A stretch of DNA of 50,335 bases. Origin: a virus. Both the position numbers and the translations under genes were made by a program. The notes beneath the pieces are model-generated. The model searched no databases, was not told where the DNA came from, and saw only the letters and a list, made by a program, of their open reading frames with translations. Where the stretch lies: IMG/VR virus record IMGVR_UViG_3300042470_000725, positions 1 through 50,335 of that record; one strand, written 5' to 3'. Numbering within the stretch: the first letter of the stretch is position 1; the number at the start of each line of letters is the position of its first letter. This document shows, piece after piece, positions 82 to 50,335 of the stretch.

Positions 82-127
82 AGAGGTTTCCGTATGGACT
101 CCCTTCCGGGAGCGCTCGCGGCGTTGG
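1..127. repeat. Terminal direct repeat, left copy (contig-circularisation overlap)
   Basis: These 127 bases are identical to the last 127 bases of the window. A perfect repeat of this exact length is the usual trace of a de Bruijn assembly with k=127 closing a circle, so I read it as evidence of a circular map or a circularly permuted packaged genome rather than a biological terminal repeat. A true short terminal redundancy cannot be excluded from sequence alone. Confidence 0.9.
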
Positions 128-2427
128 CGGCGAGTGCGCAATTTGTCACGTGGTACGCCTACCCGTCCGCCACGCGGCCGGGAAAGATGGATAAGATTCC
201 GACGCTTTGGCATAGCGGCGCGCCCTGTAACGCGCACGAGCCGGGCAATTGGACAGACGCGGCGACCGCCGTCGCGACGCAGCACCTAGCCGATCGCGGT
301 CACGGCGCGGGCATCGGCTTTGTCTTTACCGACGCGGATCCATTCTTCTGCTGCGACGTTGACGGCGCGCACGACGGGACCGATTGGTCGCCTTTAGCGC
401 TCGAGCTGGTCGGAAGGTTCCCGGGCGCGGCCGTGGAAGTCTCGCACTCCGGCCGTGGCCTGCACATTATCGGCCGGCTCACCGGGGCCCCGCCGCCGCA
501 CAGTACGAAGAACGTCGGGCTCAATATGGAGCTCTACACGGCGCGCCGCTTTATCGCGCTCACCGGGACGCACGCGCACGGCGACGCCGGCACGGACCAT
601 ACCGCCGCCTTTGCCGCCACCGTCGCCCAATACTTCGCGCCGACGGCCGGGACGGGGGTCACGGCGGGCGAGTGGACAACCGGCCCCGTGGCGGAATGGG
701 GCGGGCCCGAAGACGACGAGACCTTGATAGCCCGTGCCCTAAAGGCGAGCGACAACAGCTCGCGGGCAGTCTTCGGCGGGCAGGGATACACGTTCCGCCA
801 GCTCTGGACGGCGGACGTACCGCACGACGCCCGGAGCGAGTGCGATCAAGCCCTAGCCGGGCACTTGGCATTCTGGACGGGCAAAGACTGCGCACGGATT
901 GAACGGCTCATGAGAGCGTCGCCGTCGTACCGGGATAAATGGGACTCGCCGGCCCATGCCAACTATCTCGCGACCACGATCCTCAAAGCCTGCAGCTACG
1001 TGACCAACGTCGCCGTCGATCTCCGGGCGGCGCGGGCGTCGGATCCAGACGGGCCCGGGGACTTTGTCGACCCGTCGCAACAGCTCGCGTTTTTTGACGG
1101 ATGCACGTACATTCTGCAGGAGCTCGAGATTTACGACGCCAAGCGCAACCGGCTCATGAATCGCGAGGCGTTTGACGTGTTGTTTGGCGGCCGGGTGTTT
1201 GTCATAGACGCGGCCGGCGAGAAGGTGAGCGACAGCGCGTACAAGTGCTTGACGCAGTCGCGCGTTAACCGCCCCCGCATCGTCGACGACCTTTGCTTCC
1301 GGCCCGGGCTGGCGACTGGCGAGATCGTCCGGGAAGGGCCGTGGTCGGCCGTCAACACGTACGCCCCTTACGTCTGCGTCGCGACGCCCGGGGACGCCTC
1401 CCGTTGGCTTAGGCATCTTGCCCTAATGCTTCCCGACGCGGCCGATGCGCGGATTCTCATTGAGTACCTTGCGCGGGCCGTCCAATTCCCGGGCGTTAAA
1501 ATCCCGTGGTGGCCCGTGCTGCAGGGCGTCAAGGGTAACGGCAAGACACTTATCGCCGTCGTTATGGAGTACCTATTCGGCGAGACTTACACGTATCGAC
1601 CCAATACCGCCGCCCTTGCCCGTGACGGGATGAAATTTAACAAATGGCTGTCCCGCAAGTTATGGGTCACGCTTGACGAGCTCGCCCTGCACGACAAGCG
1701 GGGCTTCATGGAAGAGCTGAAGCCGATCGTTACCGAAGCCCGCGTGACCTATGAGGCGAAGGGCGTCGACCCGGTCATGGGCGACAATACCGCCAACGGG
1801 ATCATCTTGACGAACCACAAGGACGGCTTGCCGCTCACGGACGGGGAACGGCGATACGCGGTGTTTTATTGTGCGCAGCAAAGTGAAGCCGACCTTATCC
1901 GGGACGGCATGACGCAGGCGTATTTTGACGACTTCCTAGCGTGGCTGCAGGGCGGGGGCTTTGCGCACATAGCGCACTACCTGCAGACCTATCCGCTCCC
2001 GGCCGTGCTCCCCAATCGCGCGCCCAAGACGTCCGCCACGGCCGAAGCCATTACGCAGGGGCTAGGGACGGCGGAACAGCTCGTGCAGGACGCGATCGAA
2101 GAGGGGCGGCAAGGCTTTGCGGGCGGATGGGTCTCGAGCCACTATCTCGACCTACTGCTGGACGCGCGGCGCATCAAGATACCCCTAAACAAGCGGCGCG
2201 GCATGATGCAATCGCTTGGCTTCGACTGGCATCCTTGCCTCCCTGACGGCCGCGTTCATGAGCCCGTCGCCCCCGACGGCCGGCGGTCAAAGCTTTACGT
2301 CCGGCCCGGGCATCTATCCCTGCAGCTCACCGACCCGGCCGCCGTGGCGCGGGCCTATACGGCGGCTCAAACCGTGTCAGCGTTTGGCGCGGCGGGCGCG
2401 GTAATTAGTATCAATAATAACCGTTGA
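94..2427 (+). CDS. Primase-polymerase / SF3-type helicase (DUF5906-like)
   Basis: Replication initiator of 777 residues, expected to prime DNA and unwind the fork. The N-terminal third looks like a bifunctional primase-polymerase: an acidic D88-V-D90 metal pair, then an S-H-S-G-R-G-L-H motif at about 117-124, matching the DxD and sxH motifs of that family. The C-terminal half has a Walker A G-V-K-G-N-G-K-T (478-485) and an acidic L-D528-E529 as Walker B, followed by the NxxDGLP-type segment seen in DUF5906/D5-like phage helicases. ATG 94 follows AAAGAGG at a good distance. The gene lies just downstream of the TetR-like gene on the circle and its TGA stop sits inside the -35 box of the next promoter. 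The family call is firm; enzymatic details are inferred. Confidence 0.9.
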   Translation: MDSLPGALAALAASAQFVTWYAYPSATRPGKMDKIPTLWHSGAPCNAHEPGNWTDAATAVATQHLADRGHGAGIGFVFTDADPFFCCDVDGAHDGTDWSPLALELVGRFPGAAVEVSHSGRGLHIIGRLTGAPPPHSTKNVGLNMELYTARRFIALTGTHAHGDAGTDHTAAFAATVAQYFAPTAGTGVTAGEWTTGPVAEWGGPEDDETLIARALKASDNSSRAVFGGQGYTFRQLWTADVPHDARSECDQALAGHLAFWTGKDCARIERLMRASPSYRDKWDSPAHANYLATTILKACSYVTNVAVDLRAARASDPDGPGDFVDPSQQLAFFDGCTYILQELEIYDAKRNRLMNREAFDVLFGGRVFVIDAAGEKVSDSAYKCLTQSRVNRPRIVDDLCFRPGLATGEIVREGPWSAVNTYAPYVCVATPGDASRWLRHLALMLPDAADARILIEYLARAVQFPGVKIPWWPVLQGVKGNGKTLIAVVMEYLFGETYTYRPNTAALARDGMKFNKWLSRKLWVTLDELALHDKRGFMEELKPIVTEARVTYEAKGVDPVMGDNTANGIILTNHKDGLPLTDGERRYAVFYCAQQSEADLIRDGMTQAYFDDFLAWLQGGGFAHIAHYLQTYPLPAVLPNRAPKTSATAEAITQGLGTAEQLVQDAIEEGRQGFAGGWVSSHYLDLLLDARRIKIPLNKRRGMMQSLGFDWHPCLPDGRVHEPVAPDGRRSKLYVRPGHLSLQLTDPAAVARAYTAAQTVSAFGAAGAVISINNNR

Positions 2428-4171: not shown

Positions 4172-4383
4172 GCGAGCGCCGGGTATTTTACGAAGTGCAT
4201 GAAGTTGGTTTCGGCATTCTCACTACGATCTATGTCGCCAATAGCGAGGCGCGGGCTCTCGAATACGCTACGGAAATGGCGAACCGACGACGGGCGACCA
4301 TGAAAGTCGTTCGCGTCGTGGCGCTCGCCGACGTGACCTTTACGGTCGCCCCGGACTATGGGCCGAAGCCCGAACCTAGATAG
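4168..4383 (+). CDS. Small paralogue 3 of three
   Basis: 71 residues: FYEVHEVGFGILTTIYV, then helix EARALEYATEMANRRRA, then strand TMKVVRVVAL. Same architecture as the two preceding genes and coupled by ATGA. It is the last gene of the small-gene operon; its end overlaps the convergent zinc-module gene by 8 bp. Function unknown. Confidence 0.65.
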   Translation: MSERRVFYEVHEVGFGILTTIYVANSEARALEYATEMANRRRATMKVVRVVALADVTFTVAPDYGPKPEPR

Positions 4384-5155
4384 GCCGCTTGCGGGGCACG
4401 CCGTAAGCATTGAGGCATGTCAGACACCCCCCGTGGCGCACGCTATGGGGGGTTTTACCATGAGTGGCGCATAGACCCTCAAAGCTCGTCAAACCCGCCC
4501 TACGGGCCGCCGCTCGCGCCGTGTCGGCATCCTGCACGCCCCGGACCATGCCGGCCGACGTAAAGCACGTGAGGCACTTCCCGTGGCGCACACTATGCGC
4601 CGTGTTGTCGTGGATTTCGCATCGGCCGACATAGGACGTCTTATGCTCCCGGCGCGCCACGGCCCGGGGATTGTCGTCCTGCAGGGGCCCGCCGGGCGTC
4701 TCGTACTCTCGAGGCGCGCCGCCAAAGGTAAAGCACTTGAGACATTTACCGTGGCGCACGCCGTAAGGCGTCGGGCCGTGACGCCGACAAAACCCGTCGT
4801 ACGTTTTGCGGCCCGCCGTCCGCGCTTTGAACCGCAGGCTGGTTTTGTCGATCGCCAGAGCCGCCCGGAACGTCCCGGCCGTCGTAAAGCACGTCAAACA
4901 TTTGCCGCTCGCGACGCTATGGGGGACGGTAATATGAATCGGACAGTAGTCGATATACGTCGGCAAATTAGCGGCGCGAGCCCGGGAACGGTCCGGGTTA
5001 ATTACTGGACGCCCGGGACTTGACGGATCGCACTCTAGGCATTTTCCCGTCTTGGTCCGGAAGCGCGTAATTCCATGCACGGCGCACACGTGGACAAATT
5101 GCCGTAACTTTCGCTCGCGGCTCATGACGCGCGTTACGGCAAAAGAAAGCTGCAT
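4376..5155 (-). CDS. Protein of five tandem zinc modules (CxxH...CxxC)
   Basis: 259 residues made of five repeats of about 45-50 residues. Each has a C-x2-H pair, about 11-13 residues, then a C-x2-C pair, in the style of C..HG.TPHSVRHGKCLTCF; the last three are closest to one another. Each module should bind one zinc ion, so the protein likely contacts nucleic acid in a multivalent way. Start uncertain: ATG 5155 and ATG 5125 have no clear ribosome-binding site, while AGGAG at 5211-5215 sits seven bases before an in-frame ATT (5203). The gene faces the small-gene operon and lies next to the candidate origin. No named family recognised. Confidence 0.7.
   Translation of the reverse strand: MQLSFAVTRVMSRERKLRQFVHVCAVHGITRFRTKTGKCLECDPSSPGRPVINPDRSRARAANLPTYIDYCPIHITVPHSVASGKCLTCFTTAGTFRAALAIDKTSLRFKARTAGRKTYDGFCRRHGPTPYGVRHGKCLKCFTFGGAPREYETPGGPLQDDNPRAVARREHKTSYVGRCEIHDNTAHSVRHGKCLTCFTSAGMVRGVQDADTARAAARRAGLTSFEGLCATHGKTPHSVRHGGCLTCLNAYGVPRKRPI
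4426..4456 (+). terminator. Possible rho-independent terminator for the small-gene operon
   Basis: ACCCCCC (4426-4432) pairs with GGGGGGT (4447-4453) around a 14-base loop and is followed by TTTT on the plus strand, 43 bp after the last plus-strand stop. It lies within the coding sequence of the opposing zinc-module gene, so the structure may partly reflect its coding repeats. Confidence 0.45.
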
Positions 5156-5270
5156 TGAGGCGATTTTCTGAATTAACGCCTCGTCGTCGTTGGTTCTGGA
5201 AATGGGAATTCTCCTGTATTTTCAATGGTCGCGGGACTTCCAGAACGAAACACGTCCTTAGCCGTTCGGC

Positions 5271-5372
5271 ATAGATATATTAAGCGGTACGCATACTCGA
5301 TCCACATGCGTGTTGCAAGCACCGTGCACGCGTGCATGTGGAAGGATGATGCATACCCTTTAATATATCTAT
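5271..5372. repeat. Nested inverted repeat (potential cruciform)
   Basis: The outer arms ATAGATATATTAA (5271-5283) and TTAATATATCTAT (5360-5372) are perfect 13-bp inverses. Inside them GGTACGCAT pairs imperfectly with ATGCATACC. The inner arms TCCACATGC (5301-5309) and GCATGTGGA (5334-5342) are perfect 9-bp inverses. Three nested stems in 102 bp in a GC-rich genome are unlikely to be accidental. Confidence 0.75.
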
Positions 5373-5396
5373 CAGAATTCCCTTAGAAGGTAAAAA

Positions 5397-5489
5397 GTGC
5401 TGGAAGTGCTGGAAGAGACGCTAAAAACCTAAGCAAAACAAGGCGTTGCGCGTTCCAGTACGTTCTGGAAGGTGCTGGAAGTGCTGGAA
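5397..5489 (+). repeat. GTGCTGGAA iterons
   Basis: Four direct copies of GTGCTGGAA lie as two adjacent pairs at 5397-5414 and 5472-5489. Related TTCTGGAA/TTCCAG elements lie at 5194-5201, 5238-5245 (inverted), 5453-5458 (inverted) and 5463-5470. The spacing and paired layout resemble protein-binding iterons. Confidence 0.7.
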
Positions 5490-5541
5490 ATGGCGTGACC
5501 CTCTTGCCGTGGCGGGCCGGGCGGGGCATTTAAGCTTCGTC

Positions 5542-6291
5542 ATGTTGACGGAAAAACAGGAAGCTTACGCACGGCATTACGCGCGGTTTGGCAATTCCGC
5601 CGCCGCGTACATGAGCGCCTATGCCGCCAAGGATTCCCTACCCTCAACAATTGCTAGCGAGGGCTCGCGGCTTCGGGCGCACCCAGCCGTAGCCGCAAGG
5701 ATAGCGGAATTACGGGAAGCGGCGACCGCAACGGCCGACGTGACCCTTGATCTCAAACAAATCTTCGCCAAGCTTTGCCTGCAGGTGGTGACGGACCCGC
5801 GCGAGCTCATGACGCTGCGCACCGGCAACTGTCGCTACTGCAATGGCGAAGCGTTTGCGTATCGTTGGCGCGATGGGCCCGAATATCAGAAGGCCCTTGT
5901 CGAGTGGCAACGTCTCGCTGAAAAGGGCGTGGTCGAAGATATGCCCGGCTGCGAAGGTGGCTTCGGGTGGCGGCCCTTTCATCCCCCGAATCCGGAATGC
6001 CCGGAGTGCGGCGGCGGCGGAACGGTCCATGGGTCGCACAAGGCTACGGACGAATACAGCCCGGGCGCGGCGGCCCTGTACGAAGGTTTCAAACAAACCG
6101 CGCACGGTATCGAGCTCAAGACGGCGGACCGTCAAAAGTCCATGGAAATGCTCGTGCGTATGCTTGGGGGCTTCGACGACAAGCTAGAGCTCAAGGGCCA
6201 ACTGGCGGCGACGATCAAGGCGGCGGTCGCGGTCGCCAGCGACCAACACACGGCCGCCAGCATGTACGCCGAAATGCTCAAAGGCCGTTGA
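5542..6291 (+). CDS. terS: Terminase small subunit
   Basis: 249 residues. The N-terminus (MLTEKQEAYARHYARFGNSA, then AYMSAY and a helix with HPAVAARIAELR) is the helix-turn-helix DNA-recognition region of the terminase_2 type small subunits that select phage DNA for packaging. A middle insert has CRYC (about 96-99) and CPEC about 55 residues later, a probable zinc site common in these proteins. A C-terminal helical part would form the oligomer or contact the large subunit. ATG 5542 begins the conserved region; extension to 5446 would read through the iterons. Its TGA stop lies in the next -35 box. Confidence 0.88.
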   Translation: MLTEKQEAYARHYARFGNSAAAYMSAYAAKDSLPSTIASEGSRLRAHPAVAARIAELREAATATADVTLDLKQIFAKLCLQVVTDPRELMTLRTGNCRYCNGEAFAYRWRDGPEYQKALVEWQRLAEKGVVEDMPGCEGGFGWRPFHPPNPECPECGGGGTVHGSHKATDEYSPGAAALYEGFKQTAHGIELKTADRQKSMEMLVRMLGGFDDKLELKGQLAATIKAAVAVASDQHTAASMYAEMLKGR

Positions 6292-6341: not shown

Positions 6342-6407
6342 ATGGTTTATGTTCCGCCCTATGGCCTAACCGCGTGGTGGGTGCGCTGGTACCGGGTGTT
6401 CAAATGA
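6342..6407 (+). CDS. 21-residue aromatic-rich peptide
   Basis: ATG 6342 behind CGGGAGAC encodes MVYVPPYGLTAWWVRWYRVF plus Lys, ending at TGA 6405-6407, where ATGA overlaps the GapR-like gene. It may be a translated leader that couples ribosomes into the next gene or a small membrane-active peptide. The gene call rests on the ribosome-binding site and overlap only. Confidence 0.5.
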   Translation: MVYVPPYGLTAWWVRWYRVFK

Positions 6408-6679
6408 CGGACGGCGCGCACAACAGCGGGGACGTCATACCCCTTACGGCCGCGACGCAGCTCCGGACAATTCTCGAGCGCATCGAACGGCTCGAGGAGG
6501 ACAAGGCCGCCGTTATGGCGGATCTCAAGGAGGTTTACGCGGAAGCCAAAGGCAACGGCTTTGACGCGAAGATTCTCCGCAAAGTCGTGCGGCTGCGGAA
6601 ACAGGACAAGGCGAAGCGCGACGAAGAGCAAGCGCTTGTCGACCTGTACCTAGACGCGATCGACGGGGGCGACTCGTGA
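6404..6679 (+). CDS. GapR-like DNA-binding protein (DUF2312)
   Basis: 91 residues. The segment from LRTILERIERLEEDKAAVMA through VYAEAKGNGFDAKILRKVVR and LRKQDKAKRDEEQALVDLYL is the DUF2312/GapR domain over its full length. In Caulobacter, GapR is a nucleoid protein that binds overtwisted AT-rich DNA ahead of forks and transcription and stimulates topoisomerases. A phage copy could aid replication of its own DNA or compete with the host protein. ATG 6404 (ATGA overlap) is preferred over GTG 6374. GapR is typical of alphaproteobacteria, which is the main clue to the host. Confidence 0.88.
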   Translation: MTDGAHNSGDVIPLTAATQLRTILERIERLEEDKAAVMADLKEVYAEAKGNGFDAKILRKVVRLRKQDKAKRDEEQALVDLYLDAIDGGDS

Positions 6680-10526: not shown

Positions 10527-10886
10527 ATGCCAATCTGTCCAGACAATCTATGTACCGGCACGCACTACCTCGCGGACTCGCCAGAGCTAGGCGCTTGCCC
10601 GTCCTGCTGCACGCCGGAAGCCATGCAACGGCTAGACCGGACCGTTGCGGCCCTTACCGCGCCGAAACCCTTTAGCGAGCAACTAGACGAGCTCGAGGGC
10701 ATGGTTAGCACCATGCGCGACACGTTCCGGGCGATGGAGCTCGAGCGTGACGAGCTGCAGGACACCGTCGCGGACGCCACGGCCGCGCTGCGACGACACT
10801 TGAGCGAGGCGGGCCAAGCGTCCGACCCGGTCACGCTCCCGCCCGGCGCGCTTCGGACGCTTCTCGAGTCCCTGAATCTGTTGTGA
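10527..10886 (+). CDS. Cys-rich/coiled-coil protein upstream of terL
   Basis: 119 residues from ATG 10527 behind AAGGGAGGGG. The N-terminus has C4, C9, C24, C27 and C28 (ACPSCCTPE), a possible zinc site; the rest is helical with a coiled-coil stretch MRDTFRAMELERDELQDTVA. Overlaps terL by GTGA, so the two are co-translated. It may assist packaging, but no family is recognised. Confidence 0.6.
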   Translation: MPICPDNLCTGTHYLADSPELGACPSCCTPEAMQRLDRTVAALTAPKPFSEQLDELEGMVSTMRDTFRAMELERDELQDTVADATAALRRHLSEAGQASDPVTLPPGALRTLLESLNLL

Positions 10887-12532
10887 CCCCGGAAGGCTTT
10901 GACTGGCAGGCCCCGGACTATACGGCCGTCTTTAACGCCCGGATGAAGCGGCTCGCTTGGATTCGCGAGGATCCAGACGTCCGTTTGCCGCCGCTTAAGG
11001 TGTTCTATCGGGAATACCCGGCGCAATTCATCCAAGATTGGGGCGTGACCTTCGACCCGCGTAACGCCGACGTCGACATTCCGACGTTGGTCCCCTTCCT
11101 GTTGTTCCCGAAACAAGAGGAATGGATAGCGTGGGTGCTCGATAGCTGGCGGAACCGTCGTCACGGGCTCACCGAGAAGAGCCGCGATTGTGGCGTGTCG
11201 TGGCTGGCGATTGCCCTTAGCTGCAGCCTTTGCCTATTCCGCGACGGGATGGTTATCGGCTTCGGGTCACGCAAGGAAGAGTACGTCGACAAAATCGACG
11301 CGCCTAAAAGCCTGTTCTACAAAGCGCGCAAGTTCATGGAATACTTGCCGCCGGAATTCCGGGGCGGCTTTAATTTGAAAATTCACGCCCCGCATATGCG
11401 TATGAGCTTCCCAAATACCGGGTCGCACATCGCTGGTGAGGCGGGAAACAATATCGGTCGGGGCGATCGGGCCGCGCTCTATTTTTTCGACGAAGCGGCG
11501 CACCACGAGCAACCCGTTCTGGTCGACGCGGCCCTGTCCGCGACGACAAACTGCAGAATGGACGTGTCGTCAGTCAACGGGCCCGCAAACCCCTTCGCGC
11601 AAAAGCGCTTCTCGTGGCCTAGCGGGCAAATTTTTATTTTCGACTGGCGAGACGACCCGCGCAAATCTCAAGACTGGTACGACAAGCTTAAAGCCCCGGG
11701 GGGTCTCGACCCCGTGAGTTTGGCGCAGGAAGTCGACCGCGACTATAACGCCAGTCAACAGGGCGTGCTGATACCGTCGGCGTGGGTGCAGGCGGCGATC
11801 GACGCTCACCTAAAGTTAGGCATTGCTCCCGTCGGCGGACGTACGGGCGGCTTCGACGTGGCGGACGAAGGGAAGGACGCCCTAGCCCTCGCGCTTCTCA
11901 ACGGCTGGTATCTGGAAGAGCTGCACGAGTGGTACGGCAAGGGCGACGATATTTTCTCGAGCGTCGAAAAAGTCTTCATGCTTTGCGACGACTTCGGCGC
12001 GCCGGGCTTCAAGTATGACAGCGACGGGCTAGGCGTCGGCGTTCGGGGCGACGCCCGGGTGATCAATGCGACCCGGCTCGGGGCGGGCCGGCATATGCTG
12101 GACGTCCGGCCCTTCCGGGGATCTGCAGAAGTGTACGACCCGGAAGGCTTCGTCGACCCGCGCGAGAAGACAAACCCGGACCGCAACCCGCTCTTGGCGC
12201 GGCGTAACAAAGACTTTTTTGTCAATTGCAAAGCGCAATCGTGGTGGTCGCTCCGGCGGCGCTTCGAAGCGACGTTTAGGGCCGTGACGGAAAGCGCGCC
12301 CTATAACCCGGACGATCTCATAAGCCTGTCCGGCCGGCTCCCCTTGCTCGGGAAGCTAACTGGCGAGCTCTCTCAACCGACGTACGATCTGCGCAACGGC
12401 AAGATATTGATTGAAAAGACGCCCGACGGGAGCAAAAGCCCGAACCTAGCGGACGCCGTCATGATCGCATACAGTCGCACGTCGCGAGAGCCCATGCGGA
12501 TTCGGGCCGGCGTCGCAGGAGACATAAGATAG
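10883..12532 (+). CDS. terL: Terminase large subunit (packaging ATPase and nuclease)
   Basis: 549 residues. The ATPase has a deviant Walker A E98-K-S-R-D-C-G-V-S-W107 of the kind common in large terminases, and a Walker B L-Y-F-F-D203-E204 with the catalytic glutamate. The C-terminal RNase H-like nuclease has G-G-F-D325-V-A-D-E-G, later CDDFGAPGFKYDSDGLG and a final LADAVMIAYSR. Together these drive DNA into the prohead and cut it. Starts at GTG 10883; the TAG stop overlaps the portal GTG by one base. About 4.6 kb of lysis and small genes separate it from terS. Confidence 0.93.
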   Translation: MTPEGFDWQAPDYTAVFNARMKRLAWIREDPDVRLPPLKVFYREYPAQFIQDWGVTFDPRNADVDIPTLVPFLLFPKQEEWIAWVLDSWRNRRHGLTEKSRDCGVSWLAIALSCSLCLFRDGMVIGFGSRKEEYVDKIDAPKSLFYKARKFMEYLPPEFRGGFNLKIHAPHMRMSFPNTGSHIAGEAGNNIGRGDRAALYFFDEAAHHEQPVLVDAALSATTNCRMDVSSVNGPANPFAQKRFSWPSGQIFIFDWRDDPRKSQDWYDKLKAPGGLDPVSLAQEVDRDYNASQQGVLIPSAWVQAAIDAHLKLGIAPVGGRTGGFDVADEGKDALALALLNGWYLEELHEWYGKGDDIFSSVEKVFMLCDDFGAPGFKYDSDGLGVGVRGDARVINATRLGAGRHMLDVRPFRGSAEVYDPEGFVDPREKTNPDRNPLLARRNKDFFVNCKAQSWWSLRRRFEATFRAVTESAPYNPDDLISLSGRLPLLGKLTGELSQPTYDLRNGKILIEKTPDGSKSPNLADAVMIAYSRTSREPMRIRAGVAGDIR

Positions 12533-14994
12533 TGAGCGCAGCACGCCCCCGCCGTCAAATGAAGCTGCGTCCCGGCGTGGCGCGCGAGATCCAGCGCCCC
12601 GGACAGGACGCGGCGACCTTTGCGCCGTATGTCCCGGCCCCGGGCGTCGCGCCTAAATCGGCGTCATCCCTTGCCATGGACAGCACCGTCTACGCGTGGG
12701 CAACGCAGGCGTCCGTTGCGTACGGCGAGGGACTGGCATTCCTTGGGTACCCCTACCTAACGCAGCTCGCCCAACGGCCGGAATTCCGCCAGATCTCGAC
12801 CATTTGGGCGAAGGAAATGACTCGCCGATGGGTCAAGATCACGTCGGCGGGCGGCGATGCGGACGAAGAGAAGATTAAGGTTATCGAGGCCGAAATGCGC
12901 AAGCTTCGGGTCCGCGACGCCTTCCGCAACGCGACGCTGCTAGATGGGTTCTTCGGCCGCTCGCATATCTTCCTAGATTTCGGCCCGTCCAAGCCCGGCG
13001 AGCTGGAAACGCCGCTCGTGCTGGACCCGCGCAAGATCCGGCCCGGATCGTTCCGGGGGCTTCGCGTCGTGGAGCCGACTTGGGTCTATCCCAACGCGTA
13101 CAACACGGCCGACCCGCTAGACGAAAATTACTACAGACCGCGTGACTGGTTCGTCATGGGGAACCGCGTGCATCGCTCCCGGCTCATGACGTTCGTTTCT
13201 CAAGACGTCCCGGACCTTCTCAAACCGTCGTACAGCTTCGGCGGCCTGTCGCGCACTCAACAGGCCATGCCCTACGTCGACAACTGGATTCGTACGCGCC
13301 AAAGCGTGAGCGACCTTCTGCACAGCTTTTCCAAGACGATTCTAAAAACCAACATGTCGGCCGTCCTGCAGGGCGGCGGCGCGGACGCGTTGAACGAGCG
13401 GGCGTCCCTGTACGCGGCAACCCGTGACAATAAAGACCTGATTATGGTCGACATGACGGAAGAGGACATCGTTGACGTTTCGACACCGCTCGGGTCGCTG
13501 GACAAGCTGCAAGCGCAGTCGCAAGAGCAAATGTCGTCGATCGCCGGGATCCCGCTCGTGGTGCTCCTAGGCATCACGCCGTCCGGGCTCAACGCGTCCA
13601 GCGACGGCGAAATCAAGACGTTTTACGCGGCGGTCAAGGCGGCTCAAGAGGATCTATTCACGGACCCGCTCAACGTCGTTCTGGCGGTCATGCAGCTCTC
13701 CCTGTTCGGCAAGGTCGATCCTAACATTGGCTTTGAATATCTCCCGCTTTGGGAAGATGACGACACGGCGCGGGCCGGCGTGCAAAAGACCATGAGCGAG
13801 ATCGACACGAGCTATCTGGACGCGGGCGTCCTGTCCCCGGAAGAGGTACGCGAGCGGCTGGCAAACGACCCGGAAAGCCCCTATTCGGGTCTGGACCTAA
13901 GCGCGCCCCCGCCAGAGCCCCCGGAGCCGGACGTACCGGACGACGAAGGGGACGGGTCGGAGCTTCCCGCGCAAGACGCGGAATGGGACGAAGGCAAACA
14001 CAAGCGCGCCGACAACGGGCAGTTTGGCGAGGGGGGCGGCGGCTCAAACAAGCGTGACCCTGCGCCGGCCGCCAGCGAAGAGACGCCCGAAGCCAAGGCG
14101 GCTCGGGAAGCGGAAGAGCGCCGCGTTGAAATGGCCCGGCGCGCCGAAGTCCGGAAAGCGCACGCGGGCCCGGGCTTTAACCGTTCGGACGCTTTCACGG
14201 CGCCGGCGGACTTTAACGCGGCCGACTTCGCCCGGACGCATGACAAATTCGACGTTACCGAATCGGACATCATCAACGGCTTCCCGGACGATACGAGCGA
14301 GCGGATAAAGGACGTCGAAGGGCGTATTGCCGCCCGCGCGCCGACGAACCACGAACATAAGCAAGCGGACGGGAGCTGGACGCCAGAGCGGGCCGCCCTG
14401 CACAAGTCGATCATTGACGAAGTGTTCGCTAAGGAGAAGGTCGACGCGGCTCGCCCGGCGGACGGGGAAGCCCCGACGTTTACCGTGCTTGGCGGCCGGG
14501 GCGGGTCCGGCAAGTCTTGGTTTGAGGGTCACGTGTACGACCCGGAGCGCGCAATCGTGCTGGACCCGGACAAGATCAAGGCGAAACTGCCCGAATTCGA
14601 GGGATGGAACGCCGCGCAAGTGCACGAGGAGTCAAGCGAGATCGCGGACGAGATAACCCGCGTCGCTCAAGAAAACGGGCTCAATCTCGTGCATGATGCG
14701 ACCATGAAAAGCCCGGAGAAGGCTAAGGCGCTCGTGCAGGGCTTCAAGGAGCGCGGCTATCGGGTCGAAGCGCACTACATGCACCTTCCCCGCCAAGAGG
14801 CGGCCAAACGTGCCGTTGGGCGTTTCCTCAACCCGAAAAGCGGGCGCTACGTTCCGCCGTCGATCGTGCTCGGGAACACCGAGAACGAAAAGTCATTTGA
14901 GGGCGTTAAGGATCTGGTCGACGCTTGGTCCTTCCGCGACAACAACGTCCCGCAAAACACGCCGCCCGTTCTGATATCGGAGAGCCGCCCATGA
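12532..14994 (+). CDS. Portal protein (DUF1073 type) fused to a zeta-toxin-like kinase domain
   Basis: 820 residues. Residues about 45-430 are a DUF1073-type portal (segments SSLAMDSTVYAWATQASVAY and PEFRQISTIWAKEMTRRWVK, then SIAGIPLVVLLGITPSGLNA), forming the ring through which DNA enters the head. An acidic, proline-rich linker leads to a GKHKRADNGQFGEGGG segment (about 489-504), a joint often seen before C-terminal cargo domains in phage head proteins. Residues about 600-815 carry a P-loop kinase: Walker A G-G-R-G-G-S-G-K661-S-W, then VLDPDKIK, NLVHDATMKS and basic residues in KRAVGRFLNP, resembling zeta/PezT toxins, which phosphorylate UDP-N-acetylglucosamine. The two halves are in one frame. 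The activity and timing of the kinase are inferred. Confidence 0.85.
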   Translation: MSAARPRRQMKLRPGVAREIQRPGQDAATFAPYVPAPGVAPKSASSLAMDSTVYAWATQASVAYGEGLAFLGYPYLTQLAQRPEFRQISTIWAKEMTRRWVKITSAGGDADEEKIKVIEAEMRKLRVRDAFRNATLLDGFFGRSHIFLDFGPSKPGELETPLVLDPRKIRPGSFRGLRVVEPTWVYPNAYNTADPLDENYYRPRDWFVMGNRVHRSRLMTFVSQDVPDLLKPSYSFGGLSRTQQAMPYVDNWIRTRQSVSDLLHSFSKTILKTNMSAVLQGGGADALNERASLYAATRDNKDLIMVDMTEEDIVDVSTPLGSLDKLQAQSQEQMSSIAGIPLVVLLGITPSGLNASSDGEIKTFYAAVKAAQEDLFTDPLNVVLAVMQLSLFGKVDPNIGFEYLPLWEDDDTARAGVQKTMSEIDTSYLDAGVLSPEEVRERLANDPESPYSGLDLSAPPPEPPEPDVPDDEGDGSELPAQDAEWDEGKHKRADNGQFGEGGGGSNKRDPAPAASEETPEAKAAREAEERRVEMARRAEVRKAHAGPGFNRSDAFTAPADFNAADFARTHDKFDVTESDIINGFPDDTSERIKDVEGRIAARAPTNHEHKQADGSWTPERAALHKSIIDEVFAKEKVDAARPADGEAPTFTVLGGRGGSGKSWFEGHVYDPERAIVLDPDKIKAKLPEFEGWNAAQVHEESSEIADEITRVAQENGLNLVHDATMKSPEKAKALVQGFKERGYRVEAHYMHLPRQEAAKRAVGRFLNPKSGRYVPPSIVLGNTENEKSFEGVKDLVDAWSFRDNNVPQNTPPVLISESRP

Positions 14995-29039: not shown

Positions 29040-30959
29040 ATGCCCGCAATCCCCGCGTCCGCGATCGTCAATGTCAACCCGGGGGTCATTTCGGCCGGCG
29101 GCTCGGCTCTCGATCTGTCCGGCCTGTTGCTCACCGCCAGCACGCAACCGCCAATCGGGTCGGTCCTGTCCTTCTCTTCGGCTCTCGACGTCGCGGCATA
29201 CTTCGGCGGGTCCAGTGCGGAAGCGGCGCAAGCGGCCGTCTATTTCGACGGGTACGACAACAGCACCGTAAAGCCGGCCGCCCTTCTCATCGCCCAATAT
29301 CCGACCAACCCGCTAGGGGTCGCCCCCTACGTCCGGGGCGGGTCGCTGGCAAGCATGACCCTTGCGCAGCTCAACGCCCTCGGGACAGGCACGATCACGC
29401 TTGCCGTCAACGGCGTGTCGGTAACGTCCGGGTCGATCGACCTTAGCGCCGTGTCGTCCTTCTCCGCAGCGGCGACCGCGATCCAGACCGCGCTCGCGTC
29501 TTACGCAGCCGTGACCACCGCCGCTATTACAAACACGAATAGCCTTTCCGTCACGGCGTCCATCAGCGGCGAGATCATGACGGTTACGGCCGTTGGCGCG
29601 GGCAACGTCCGCAACGGGACGATCATCGCGGGAACGGGCGTCACCGCCGGCACGCGGGTCATTAGCCAGATCTCCGGCACGGCGAACCAAGTCGGGACCT
29701 ACCGGGTCAGCGTTGCGCAGACTGTCGCCAGCACCACGATTACCGGGTCGGTCGGGACGATGACCGTGACCGCCGTCGCGTCCGGTACGCTCGCGGTCGG
29801 TCAAGTCATCTCCGGGACAGGCGTCACCGCCGGAACCTTCATCACCGGCCTTGGGACCGGCACGGGGGGCACCGGAACCTACTTCGTCAGCCCGGGGCAA
29901 AACGCTTCGTCGACCACCATCAGCGCCGGCCCGCTCGCCTGCACATACGACAGTGTTTCCAGCGCGTTCGTCATCACCGGGGGCACCCCCGGCACTGTCG
30001 GAACCATCACGTACGCTTCCAGCGCTCTGTCGACGTCCCTGAAGCTCACGGCGGCGACCGGCGCGACCTTGTCGCAAGGCGCGCCCGAAGGCGTCCCGTC
30101 GACCAATCTGGACGCGCTTATCGCCACCACTCAGAATTGGGCGTCGTTCACTACCGCCTTCGAACCGTCCATCACCGACAAGCTTCTGTTTGCGGCTTGG
30201 ACGAACGCCCAAGATGACCGCTTCGTTTACGTCCTTTGGGACACCGACGCTCTAGCGATCACGAACAGCGCGCTTTGCGCCGGCCGCCAGATTGCCGCCG
30301 CCGGGTACGCCGGAACCGCGCCGGTCTACAGCCCGACCGATCAATACCTTGGCGCGCTGGTCATGGGATTCATCGCGTCGCTGGACTTCGCCCGGGCCAA
30401 CGCTCGCGCGACTCTTGCCTTCCGCTCGCAGGCGGGCATGACCGCCAGCGTGACGAGCTCCACCGTTGCGGAGCAACTTATCGCGAACGGCTATAACTTC
30501 TACGGGGCCTACGCGACGGCCAACGACGAGTTTGTCTTCCTGTACCCCGGGTCGGTCTCCGGCGACTTCTTGTGGCTAGACAGCTACGTGAACCAAATTT
30601 GGCTCAACAACAGCCTGCAGCTCGCGCTCATGACGCTGCTTACCGGAACGCCGTCGATTCCCTACAATGCGGAAGGCTACGCCCTTATTGAGGCGGCTGC
30701 GCTGGACCCAATCAACGCGGCCCTTTTGTTCGGCGCAATTCGCCCCGGCGTGACCCTGTCCGCGCAACAGGCCGCGACCATCAACAATGTCGCCGGCTTT
30801 GACGCCGCGCCGATCGTGTCGGCCCGGGGCTGGTACTTCCTTGTTCAAGACGCCAGCCCGTCCGTCCGTGCCGCCCGTGAATCGCCGCCCTGTACGCTCT
30901 GGTACGCGGACGGGCAGAGCGTCCAGAAGATCACTCTCGCCAGCCTGCAGGTGCAATAA
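29040..30959 (+). CDS. Tail sheath protein (DUF3383) with inserted repeat domain
   Basis: 639 residues. The N-terminus (IVNVNPGVISAGGSALDLSG, YFGGSSAEAAQAAVYFDGYD) and the C-terminal half (AWTNAQDDRFVYVLWDTDAL, AEQLIANGYNFYGAYATAN, LQLALMTLLTGTPSIPYNA) match the DUF3383 sheath family, proving a contractile tail. Residues about 175-300 contain two copies of the MTVTAV...SGT repeat also found in the cement protein, inserted near the surface domain. Its TAA stop overlaps the tube gene. Confidence 0.92.
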   Translation: MPAIPASAIVNVNPGVISAGGSALDLSGLLLTASTQPPIGSVLSFSSALDVAAYFGGSSAEAAQAAVYFDGYDNSTVKPAALLIAQYPTNPLGVAPYVRGGSLASMTLAQLNALGTGTITLAVNGVSVTSGSIDLSAVSSFSAAATAIQTALASYAAVTTAAITNTNSLSVTASISGEIMTVTAVGAGNVRNGTIIAGTGVTAGTRVISQISGTANQVGTYRVSVAQTVASTTITGSVGTMTVTAVASGTLAVGQVISGTGVTAGTFITGLGTGTGGTGTYFVSPGQNASSTTISAGPLACTYDSVSSAFVITGGTPGTVGTITYASSALSTSLKLTAATGATLSQGAPEGVPSTNLDALIATTQNWASFTTAFEPSITDKLLFAAWTNAQDDRFVYVLWDTDALAITNSALCAGRQIAAAGYAGTAPVYSPTDQYLGALVMGFIASLDFARANARATLAFRSQAGMTASVTSSTVAEQLIANGYNFYGAYATANDEFVFLYPGSVSGDFLWLDSYVNQIWLNNSLQLALMTLLTGTPSIPYNAEGYALIEAAALDPINAALLFGAIRPGVTLSAQQAATINNVAGFDAAPIVSARGWYFLVQDASPSVRAARESPPCTLWYADGQSVQKITLASLQVQ

Positions 30960-38601: not shown

Positions 38602-39633
38602 ATGGACGCCGCCGACATTCCGACCAAGTTTCCGATTCCCTTCGCCTCGAGCGCGGGTGGCGGCTATATCCGGACCATTCCGGAAGCCCCCGGCGCGTCT
38701 GGCGTCGCGAATCTTACCGAAGGCTTCCCGCCGGAGTGCTTCACGCCCCTGTCCGGCGGCGGCGTGCCCCCGGCCGGACAGGATTTTAACGGGATCCTGA
38801 ATCAAATCACCGCTTGGAACCAATGGCAGGCGGCCGGCGGAACGTCCCTGTACGACGGCACATTCTCGACCGATATCGGCGGCTATCCCGCCGGCTGCAT
38901 TCTGCGCAGCACCACGGCCGGCCTCTATTGGGTGAATCTGGTCGACGCCAATACGACCAACCCGGACAGCGGCGGGGCGGGCTGGCAAGCGCTGGTCGCC
39001 CCGGACAGCGTCGCGAATACGCAGCTCGCGCAAATGCCGACGCTCACGGCCAAGGCCAATATCGGCACGGCGTCCGTGGTCACGGCTTCGATCGCCTCGC
39101 AGACGATGACCGTGACCGCCGTCGCGTCCGGCCGGCTGGCAATCGGCCAAACCCTGTCCGGGACGGGCGTCACCGCCGGCACACGCATTACGGCCTTCCT
39201 CACCGGCACGGGCGGTACAGGCACGTACAGCGTGAGCGTCGCGCAAACCGTCGCCAGTGGCACTATCAACGCCACGGGGACCGCTTCTGCGTCTGACGTG
39301 CCCCTTGCGGACCTTCTCACGGCGGCCGGCGTCGTCGCACCCTTCGCGTCCTGCATGGTCGCCGGACAGGGCAGCAACGGCGCGTGTACGATCTACGGCG
39401 CAAACAATATCGCCAGCGTGACCCGGACCGCCAGCGGAACCTATTACGTCGCGTTCACGTCCGCCCCCGCCGACGCCAACTATGCGCCACAACTCACCGT
39501 GCGCGGGCAGAACGTGGTCGCGACTTGGGAAAACCCGACGACGGTCGGCTTCGACGTGAACCAACAGAACGGCAACGCCAACATTGGCAGCGCGCCACAG
39601 AACAACAATTTCAGCGTCCTAGTCTTCCGCTAA
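38602..39633 (+). CDS. Tail fibre protein with one surface repeat
   Basis: 343 residues from ATG 38602. The N-terminal 140 residues ([60 protein letters not shown]) are a typical fibre base that attaches to the baseplate. Residues about 158-225 hold one MTVTAV...SGT repeat shared with cement and sheath. The C-terminus ([28 protein letters not shown]) is a beta tip. Last gene of the structural block. Confidence 0.8.
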
Positions 39634-49972: not shown

Positions 49973-50289
49973 CCAACCCCCGTACGCCCCGTTGGCAGGC
50001 GATGAACGCGGCGCGCGACGCCAAGGTGCTTGACGCGGCTTGCGCCGTGGCGAGCGAGACCGGGCTGCAGGGGCTTACCCGGCGGGCCGTGGCGGAACGC
50101 GCCGGGGTGGCGCTCGGGAGCGTGAACCTATCGTACGGCGACCTAGCCGGGCTTCATCGCGCCGTGGTGCAGGAGGCGATCGCGCGCCCCCTTCTAGGCG
50201 TACTTGCACAAGCGCTGGCAATGGGTGATCCTGTCGCCCGCGACGCGCCCGACGGCCTCAAAGCCGAAGCCCTCGCCACCGTCCAGTAA
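49963..50289 (+). CDS. Short TetR-like helix-turn-helix regulator
   Basis: 108 residues from ATG 49963. AARDAKVLDAACAVASETGL, QGLTRRAVAERAGVALGSVN and LSYGDLAGLHRAVVQEAI form the three-helix DNA-binding part of TetR regulators. The ligand/dimerisation domain, usually over 120 residues, is reduced to about 40. It lies directly upstream of the primase gene on the circle, so it is a candidate regulator of early replication genes. A deletion derivative is possible, but the frame is intact. Confidence 0.75.
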   Translation: MQVTNPRTPRWQAMNAARDAKVLDAACAVASETGLQGLTRRAVAERAGVALGSVNLSYGDLAGLHRAVVQEAIARPLLGVLAQALAMGDPVARDAPDGLKAEALATVQ

Positions 50290-50335
50290 AGAGGTTTCCG
50301 TATGGACTCCCTTCCGGGAGCGCTCGCGGCGTTGG
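50209..50335. repeat. Terminal direct repeat, right copy
   Basis: Identical to bases 1-127, covering the end of the TetR-like gene and the first codons of the primase-helicase gene. See the left copy for interpretation. Confidence 0.9.

Follow-up and report, generated by a model that had tools for sequence, protein, structure and literature searches.

A conserved, iteron-bearing candidate control element ahead of the packaging genes of myophages with an NrS-1-type primase-polymerase

The late promoters of P2-type phages are activated by the Ogr/delta zinc-finger proteins, which bind repeats near -55, and the early control region of phage Mu is organised around divergent transcription, arrays of repressor sites and a bend made by IHF. 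The origins of P4 (the alpha origin and crr) and SPP1 (oriL and oriR) have iterons by AT-rich DNA and are linked to primase or helicase genes, and in lambda cosB and SPP1 pac repeats and a bend site lie before terS. In the case of phage NrS-1, one report suggests that TTTGGTTA sites may fix where replication starts (PMC8718748). A search of the literature found no paper on the element described here.

The window, i.e. the whole stretch of DNA analysed (50,335 nucleotides), is one IMG/VR virus record of a myophage with a tail sheath and an NrS-1-type primase-polymerase. Its first and last 127 bases (1-127 and 50209-50335) are identical, so that we read the record as a circular genome with a length of 50,208 bp, both ends being a single assembly overlap. 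The element spans the gap between an ORF annotated at 4376-5155 on the minus strand and terS on the plus strand, the two being read in opposite directions. The features to which the text refers are as follows.

94-2427, plus strand: NrS-1-type primase-polymerase with a DUF5906 helicase-like part, the marker of the element-carrying early module
4376-5203, minus strand: divergent gene, with a predicted N-terminal HTH and five zinc modules (C-x2-H ... C-x2-C), from its frame and predicted structure
5196-5201, plus strand: left iteron CTGGAA, probably within the left gene
5204-5541, no strand: putative control element, the non-coding part if the left gene begins at ATT 5201-5203, from conserved iteron and leader blocks
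5238-5243, minus strand: left iteron CTGGAA, inverted, not retained in the nearest relative, L108
5271-5372, no strand: 102-bp imperfect palindrome with outer arms at 5271-5283 and 5360-5372, from repeat and fold analysis
5397-5414, plus strand: tandem iteron pair GTGCTGGAAGTGCTGGAA with 9-bp spacing, retained in L108
5436-5448, plus strand: IHF-like site AAACAAGGCGTTG, one mismatch to the consensus WATCAANNNNTTR
5453-5458, minus strand: right iteron CTGGAA, inverted (TTCCAG; TTCCGG in L108), from the CTGGAA count
5465-5489, plus strand: three right iterons CTGGAA, at 5465, 5475 and 5484, from the same count
5504-5532, plus strand: promoter-like TTGCCG (5504-5509), 17 bp, CATTTA (5527-5532), 9 nt 5' of the terS start
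5542-6291, plus strand: terS, Terminase_2/phrog_51, from family matches

The repeats near -55 of P2 late promoters, bound by a small zinc protein, have a counterpart here in an iteron about 55-60 bp ahead of the start codon, but the zinc modules are different and come with a predicted HTH that has no family match, and there are also iterons at -130 to -170 and at about -300, an IHF-like site and a palindrome. The divergent genes, site arrays and IHF-like site are reminiscent of Mu early control, although the present element adjoins terS and accompanies a primase-polymerase module. The resemblance to the P4 and SPP1 origins lies in the iterons by AT-rich DNA, the presence of two copies in some genomes and the linkage to primase/helicase genes; however, the copies precede late operons and the skew does not turn at the element in eight of nine genomes. 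Unlike lambda cosB and SPP1 pac, the element is kept while TerS families are exchanged. The window primase belongs to the same family as that of NrS-1.

The first-pass annotation had described an AT-rich region with a nested hairpin and iterons, and this anatomy has stood up well. The lowest-GC 400-bp window of the genome (48% at 5091 compared to 64.1% overall) overlaps the element. CTGGAA occurs exactly eight times (six plus, two minus) from 5196 to 5489, just as had been claimed, out of 20 occurrences in the whole window, and its maximum of 8 per 300 bp was not approached when the genome was dinucleotide-shuffled 100 times (3 at most). The iterons stand at -346, -304, -142, -133, -89, -77, -67 and -58 from the operon start. 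The hairpin, with arms at 5271-5309 and 5334-5372, does have a perfect outer stem of 13 bp (ATAGATATATTAA/TTAATATATCTAT) and a DNA fold with z = -4.4, which was equalled in stability by only one of 200 shuffles. The iterons could not be explained as a coding repeat, being out of frame and in both orientations, and a coding extension of terS from TTG 5446 was rejected as its frame is not retained in L108. An Rfam search gave no match and a generic promoter scan called no promoter in the element.

A number of other observations were made on the genome and its relatives. The portal_3 protein (12532-14994) carries a C-terminal fusion to a zeta-toxin/AAA_33-like kinase domain (Pfam E 1.6e-24). A small phrog_4212 protein, which the first-pass annotation read as GapR-like, is encoded at 6374-6679, directly 3' of terS, and in L012 it precedes the element. 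Position 10558, inside the TerS-TerL interval, is base 1 of both L008 and L009, contigs of one metagenome, and the shared start may mark a strain break or a hypervariable spot. The tail sheath (29040-30959) and the fibre protein (38602-39633) both match phrog_21413 and phrog_38233, which suggests a common inserted domain. In L142, L148, L165, L179 and L182 long GC-rich tandem repeats in one orientation follow soon after the primase and are probably coding.

The left boundary of the element depends on where the divergent gene begins. Its annotated start is the ATG at 5155, its frame stays open as far as 5221 both in the window and in L108, a relative at 79-87% identity, and a Shine-Dalgarno sequence, AGGAGA, is present at 5210-5215, six bases ahead of an ATT codon at 5201-5203 that is the likely start. 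Since the frame is open and AGGAGA precedes the ATT, the CTGGAA at 5196 is probably inside the gene, and the left 48 bp or so of the stretch are probably coding. The residues added by the ATT start are predicted to form two helices (AlphaFold2 mean pLDDT 72.7, pTM 0.26), which may be read as HTH-like and as followed by the repeated zinc modules. The protein has no family match in Pfam, PHROG, NCBIfam or PDB, and a structure search found no significant fold match. A minus-strand ORF with zinc modules occurs within 2.6 kb to the left of the element in 26 of 39 regions compared (at least one of these matches, in L162, looks spurious), as against 18 of 138 control stretches, and was not found in the remaining 13. 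In L012 (4973-5232 and 5858-6406) TerS lacks an N-terminal domain and a separate small HTH-like ORF, full of GCGTTACG repeats, lies just ahead of the element; this ORF may represent a TerS that has been split, or a substitute regulator.

An exact scan for the iterons yielded 37 stretches among viral contigs, L108 being the only one found to be homologous to the window; the scan of genome contigs gave at least 120 unspecific matches and was not used. L108 and L126, which are one contig, hold the orthologous region with 79-87% identity around the element. The first-pass annotation would have given up its proposals had the iterons been poorly conserved in close relatives, but identity to L108 is 86% for the tandem iterons and 92% for the right iterons, with 81% for the leader of the left gene, 60% for the left (zinc) coding sequence and 81% for that of terS, and the best-conserved blocks fall on the terS side. 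The interior of the palindrome has been replaced (30% identical). In the outer stem 11 pairs are retained, two of them through compensatory double changes, and the two innermost pairs are broken. Because the outer stem is retained by compensatory changes while the interior differs, the palindrome was apparently selected as a shape, a suggestion drawn from two sequences. The promoter-like geometry is also retained, being TTGCCG-17-CATTTA-7-ATG in L126 and TTGCCG-17-CATTTA-9-ATG in the window. All this supports the earlier view that the stretch holds a conserved cis element of the protein-binding type, and judged on its sequence it is a real, conserved control element.

Relatives were drawn from those of the primase (80 of 103 loci kept) and of TerL (80 of 347 kept), and in 39 genomes the comparison took in the 450 bp 5' of the packaging operon. 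The set omits the duplicate contigs L001, L002, L108, L124, L125, L128, L129, L146, L170, L199 and L205; within it, L162 duplicates the element of L154, eight regions (KpV52, MSW-3, SppYZU01, Scuro, L155, L162, L191 and L204) were positioned manually, the element having already been noticed in them, and the operon starts of L130, L139, L025 and L055, in which the element was not found, are possibly misplaced. The region fell in the lowest 1% of GC of its own locus in 28 of 39 cases and contained a repeated hexamer at p <= 0.01 in 23; without the eight hand-placed regions the figures are 22 and 19 of 31. Each relative has its own iteron, which in most is TACCCC (102 found, 4.4 expected), and IHF-like sites with no more than one mismatch to the consensus number 59 compared to 10.8 expected, although both TACCCC and the IHF consensus were picked after inspecting some of the same sequences. 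Many of the plus-strand IHF-like sites lie at -86 to -182. The other iterons are CTGGAA (window/L126), ATACCGG (L012), ACTGGC (L127), CTCCCG (L132), TGACC (L154/L162), AAGGTA (L191) and CCCCCG/CTATGGGGG (L131). A 26-bp palindromic element, CAAASCCTTRYGCCACAAGGGTTTGC, which was found in L003 and L012 only among IMG/VR contigs, overlaps iteron and IHF-like parts.

The order of parts is shared: left iterons, AT-rich palindrome, tandem pair, IHF-like site, right iterons, a -35/-10-like core and the start codon. The places of the iterons are anchored to the operon start, the left ones at about -290 to -350, the tandem pair at -130 to -174 and the right ones at -46 to -118, ending about 55-60 bp ahead of it. 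Palindromes with z <= -3 are present in 18 of 39 regions and in one of 39 control windows, a part of them being inverted iterons. The score for inverted 7-mers (nine of 39 regions in the top 1% compared to control windows) tracks GC content and is uninformative. A core profile was built from 22 sequences, the window not among them, and it matches the window genome once only, at 5370-5448 and weakly (E 4.7). Among held-out genomes it matched in place in L131, L132, L154 and Scuro, weakly and on the opposite strand in L127, and elsewhere in L191; L126 and L012 were unmatched, and in KpV52, which was not used for training either, the best match is weak (E 0.55) and lies in its second copy. No element was seen in HMSP1-Susan, a more distant primase relative.

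An important consideration is which genes the element accompanies. L154 and L162 have primases that are 94% identical and elements that are 97% identical over 483 bp, but the identity stops some 15-20 bp short of the adjoining gene. In L154 that gene encodes a Terminase_2, in L162 a small terminase of phrog_606 that is unrelated to it. Either the element or just its core precedes TerS of phrog_51, phrog_606 and phrog_309 (in L184 it is recognised solely by IHF-like sites and low GC), as well as a phrog_38 TerL, and in SppYZU01, L204 and L147 it is followed by a minor-tail gene. At 34 loci with primase-free TerS homologues, one of which (L019) shares a contig with the primase locus L135 and holds five of the nine TACCCC matches and the sole perfect IHF site, only four fell in the lowest 1% of GC, IHF-like sites numbered 8 compared to 8.0 expected and TACCCC nine; the element is missing from the other 33. 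A partial Mantel test on iteron type gave -0.244 (p 0.004) for the primase and -0.139 (p 0.064) for TerS, a modest difference in favour of the primase as the partner. A search for the primase in plasmids gave weak partial matches only. In the genomes compared the element thus accompanies the early module, that of the NrS-1-type primase-polymerase, and not the small terminase.

Whilst the window and two of the isolates, SppYZU01 and Scuro, in which the structural genes are largely on one strand, have one copy of the element, two copies are found in genomes whose structural genes are interrupted by genes on the opposite strand. In all six of the enteric-lineage isolates read the right part occurs a second time, this copy comprising the tandem pair, an A-rich stretch with an IHF-like site and an inverted iteron, with identities of 95% over 302 bp in KpV52, 94% over 108 bp in MSW-3, 93% over 108 bp in PEi21, 91% over 89 bp in LAPP1, 86% over 84 bp in PEAT2 and 80% over 156 bp in KsaM-C1. 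The gene that follows is an annotated neck gene in five of them and in LAPP1 is unannotated with the same gene order. The other late operon starts of KpV52 are without a copy. The copies of KpV52 (L206) lie at 13984-14390 and at 47275-47405/1-170, and their similarity suggests recent gene conversion. The copy ahead of the neck gene also has a neighbour that encodes a zinc-like module.

The right-hand end of the element has the geometry of a promoter. In 13 of 37 regions, L025 and L055 having been dropped and the start re-set in four loci, a hexamer TANNNT with at least four of six matches to TATAAT precedes the start by 5-12 nt, compared to a mean of 3.0 and a maximum of 9 in 200 rounds of shuffling. 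All 13 are without a Shine-Dalgarno sequence; the other 24 have no -10 in the expected place. In 11 of the 37 the -10 is 9-10 nt from the start codon, and since this occurs without a Shine-Dalgarno sequence a leaderless mRNA is predicted. The terS start in the window is likewise without one and its -10, CATTTA, is weak. A sigma-54 promoter was considered and dropped, a good-looking GGCAC/TTGC match having been seen by eye in L154/L162 alone.

Of an origin, a TerS site and a late-operon control region, it is the last that best accords with the promoter geometry and the second copies. Our preferred reading, which we hold with moderate confidence, is that the stretch would be such a control region, run by a DNA-binding protein of the early module together with IHF and often giving a leaderless terS mRNA; a late-operon switch is the most likely function because the layout recurs in many relatives and remains with the genes for DNA copying where those for packaging have been exchanged. 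In the scheme that we infer for binding, direction of control and timing, an early-module protein, most simply the adjacent HTH/zinc-module protein, would bind the iterons and IHF would bend the DNA between the tandem pair and the right iterons. The complex would then activate the promoter, or repress it until late, and RNA polymerase would begin at or near the terS start codon. At the left iterons the same protein would control its own divergent gene, and the palindrome is perhaps kept as a shape, as a cruciform or melting zone. Several points tell against a late-operon switch: the -10 of the window is poor and the generic scan called no promoter there, most regions have no -10 where one is expected, the zinc-module ORF was not found in a third of them, other late operons of KpV52 start without a copy, the Mantel difference is modest, the core profile matches the window weakly, and a promoter would not require as much as 400 bp and a strong palindrome.

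The first-pass annotation had proposed a replication origin. At such an origin either the primase-polymerase/helicase or an initiator of host or phage would load at the iterons, IHF would bend the DNA and the AT-rich palindrome would melt; it could double as a late promoter. Some features speak for an origin, as the iterons do lie beside an AT-rich zone, the lowest-GC 400 bp of the genome being at the element in the window, KpV52, SppYZU01 and MSW-3, and the palindromes, the IHF-like sites and the linkage to the primase module are all in keeping with it. Perfect DnaA boxes (TTATCCACA) occur twice inside the element of L127 (at about 17166 and 17291), but in none of the other 38 regions. An absence of skew change had been named as a reason to abandon the proposal, and although the cumulative-skew minimum of SppYZU01 is inside the element (1331), in eight of nine element-bearing genomes it lies off it: the window (44,096), KpV52, MSW-3, Scuro, KsaM-C1, LAPP1, PEi21 and PEAT2. 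In KpV52, PEAT2, KsaM-C1 and LAPP1 it falls in the early divergent gap, and in PEi21 the skew maximum (42,138) is 0.7 kb from the element. GC skew thus gives no support as proof of an origin; as skew also follows transcription, the result weakens this reading without removing it. Neither the second copy at the neck operon nor the fixed distance to late start codons is predicted by an origin, which we regard as possible but doubtful. It is unlikely, but worth stating, that the iteron complex with IHF would be both origin and late promoter in myophages with NrS-1-type primase-polymerases, coupling replication to late transcription, and would form a fixed joint for the swapping of whole packaging/structural modules, duplicated where the structural genes are interrupted.

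That the element might be merely the operator of the divergent HTH/zinc-module gene, acting in autorepression with the terS side incidental, would suit the adjacency of that gene in two thirds of the regions and the conservation of its leader and Shine-Dalgarno sequence. This is improbable, however, given that it is the terS side that is best conserved, that the element persists in the 13 regions in which no zinc-module ORF was found and that the second copies of MSW-3 and PEi21 have no divergent neighbour.

The other half of the earlier proposal, a pac or cos site for the initiation of packaging, recognised by the small terminase, is very unlikely. It draws on the position directly before terS in most genomes and on the combination of iterons and an IHF-like site, which recalls lambda cosB. 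IME346, a Jedunavirus relative, has no fixed termini (PMC9007800), which would suit headful packaging from a pac somewhere and places no pac here. The element is unlikely to be a TerS site because L154 and L162 share it almost unchanged yet have unrelated small terminases, and it was rejected as such mainly on that pair and on the primase-free TerS loci; the several gene types that follow the element, the second copies before neck/tail genes and the retention of iterons in L012 in spite of its shortened TerS also count against it. A non-autonomous, MITE-like mobile element or an assembly artefact is hardly credible, for although the 102-bp palindrome resembles a terminal inverted repeat, the position is orthologous and the stem has compensatory changes in L108, the window genome has no second copy and the layout is common to dozens of phages.

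A late-operon control region of the kind preferred here would supply a widespread myophage group, the gene control of which is undescribed in the literature searched, with a cis element that can be recognised, and would lead to definite predictions: a leaderless terS mRNA, dependence on IHF and an activator with zinc modules and an HTH. The element marks a recombination joint between the early and late modules, and it serves as a reminder that repeats ahead of terS need not be pac sites.
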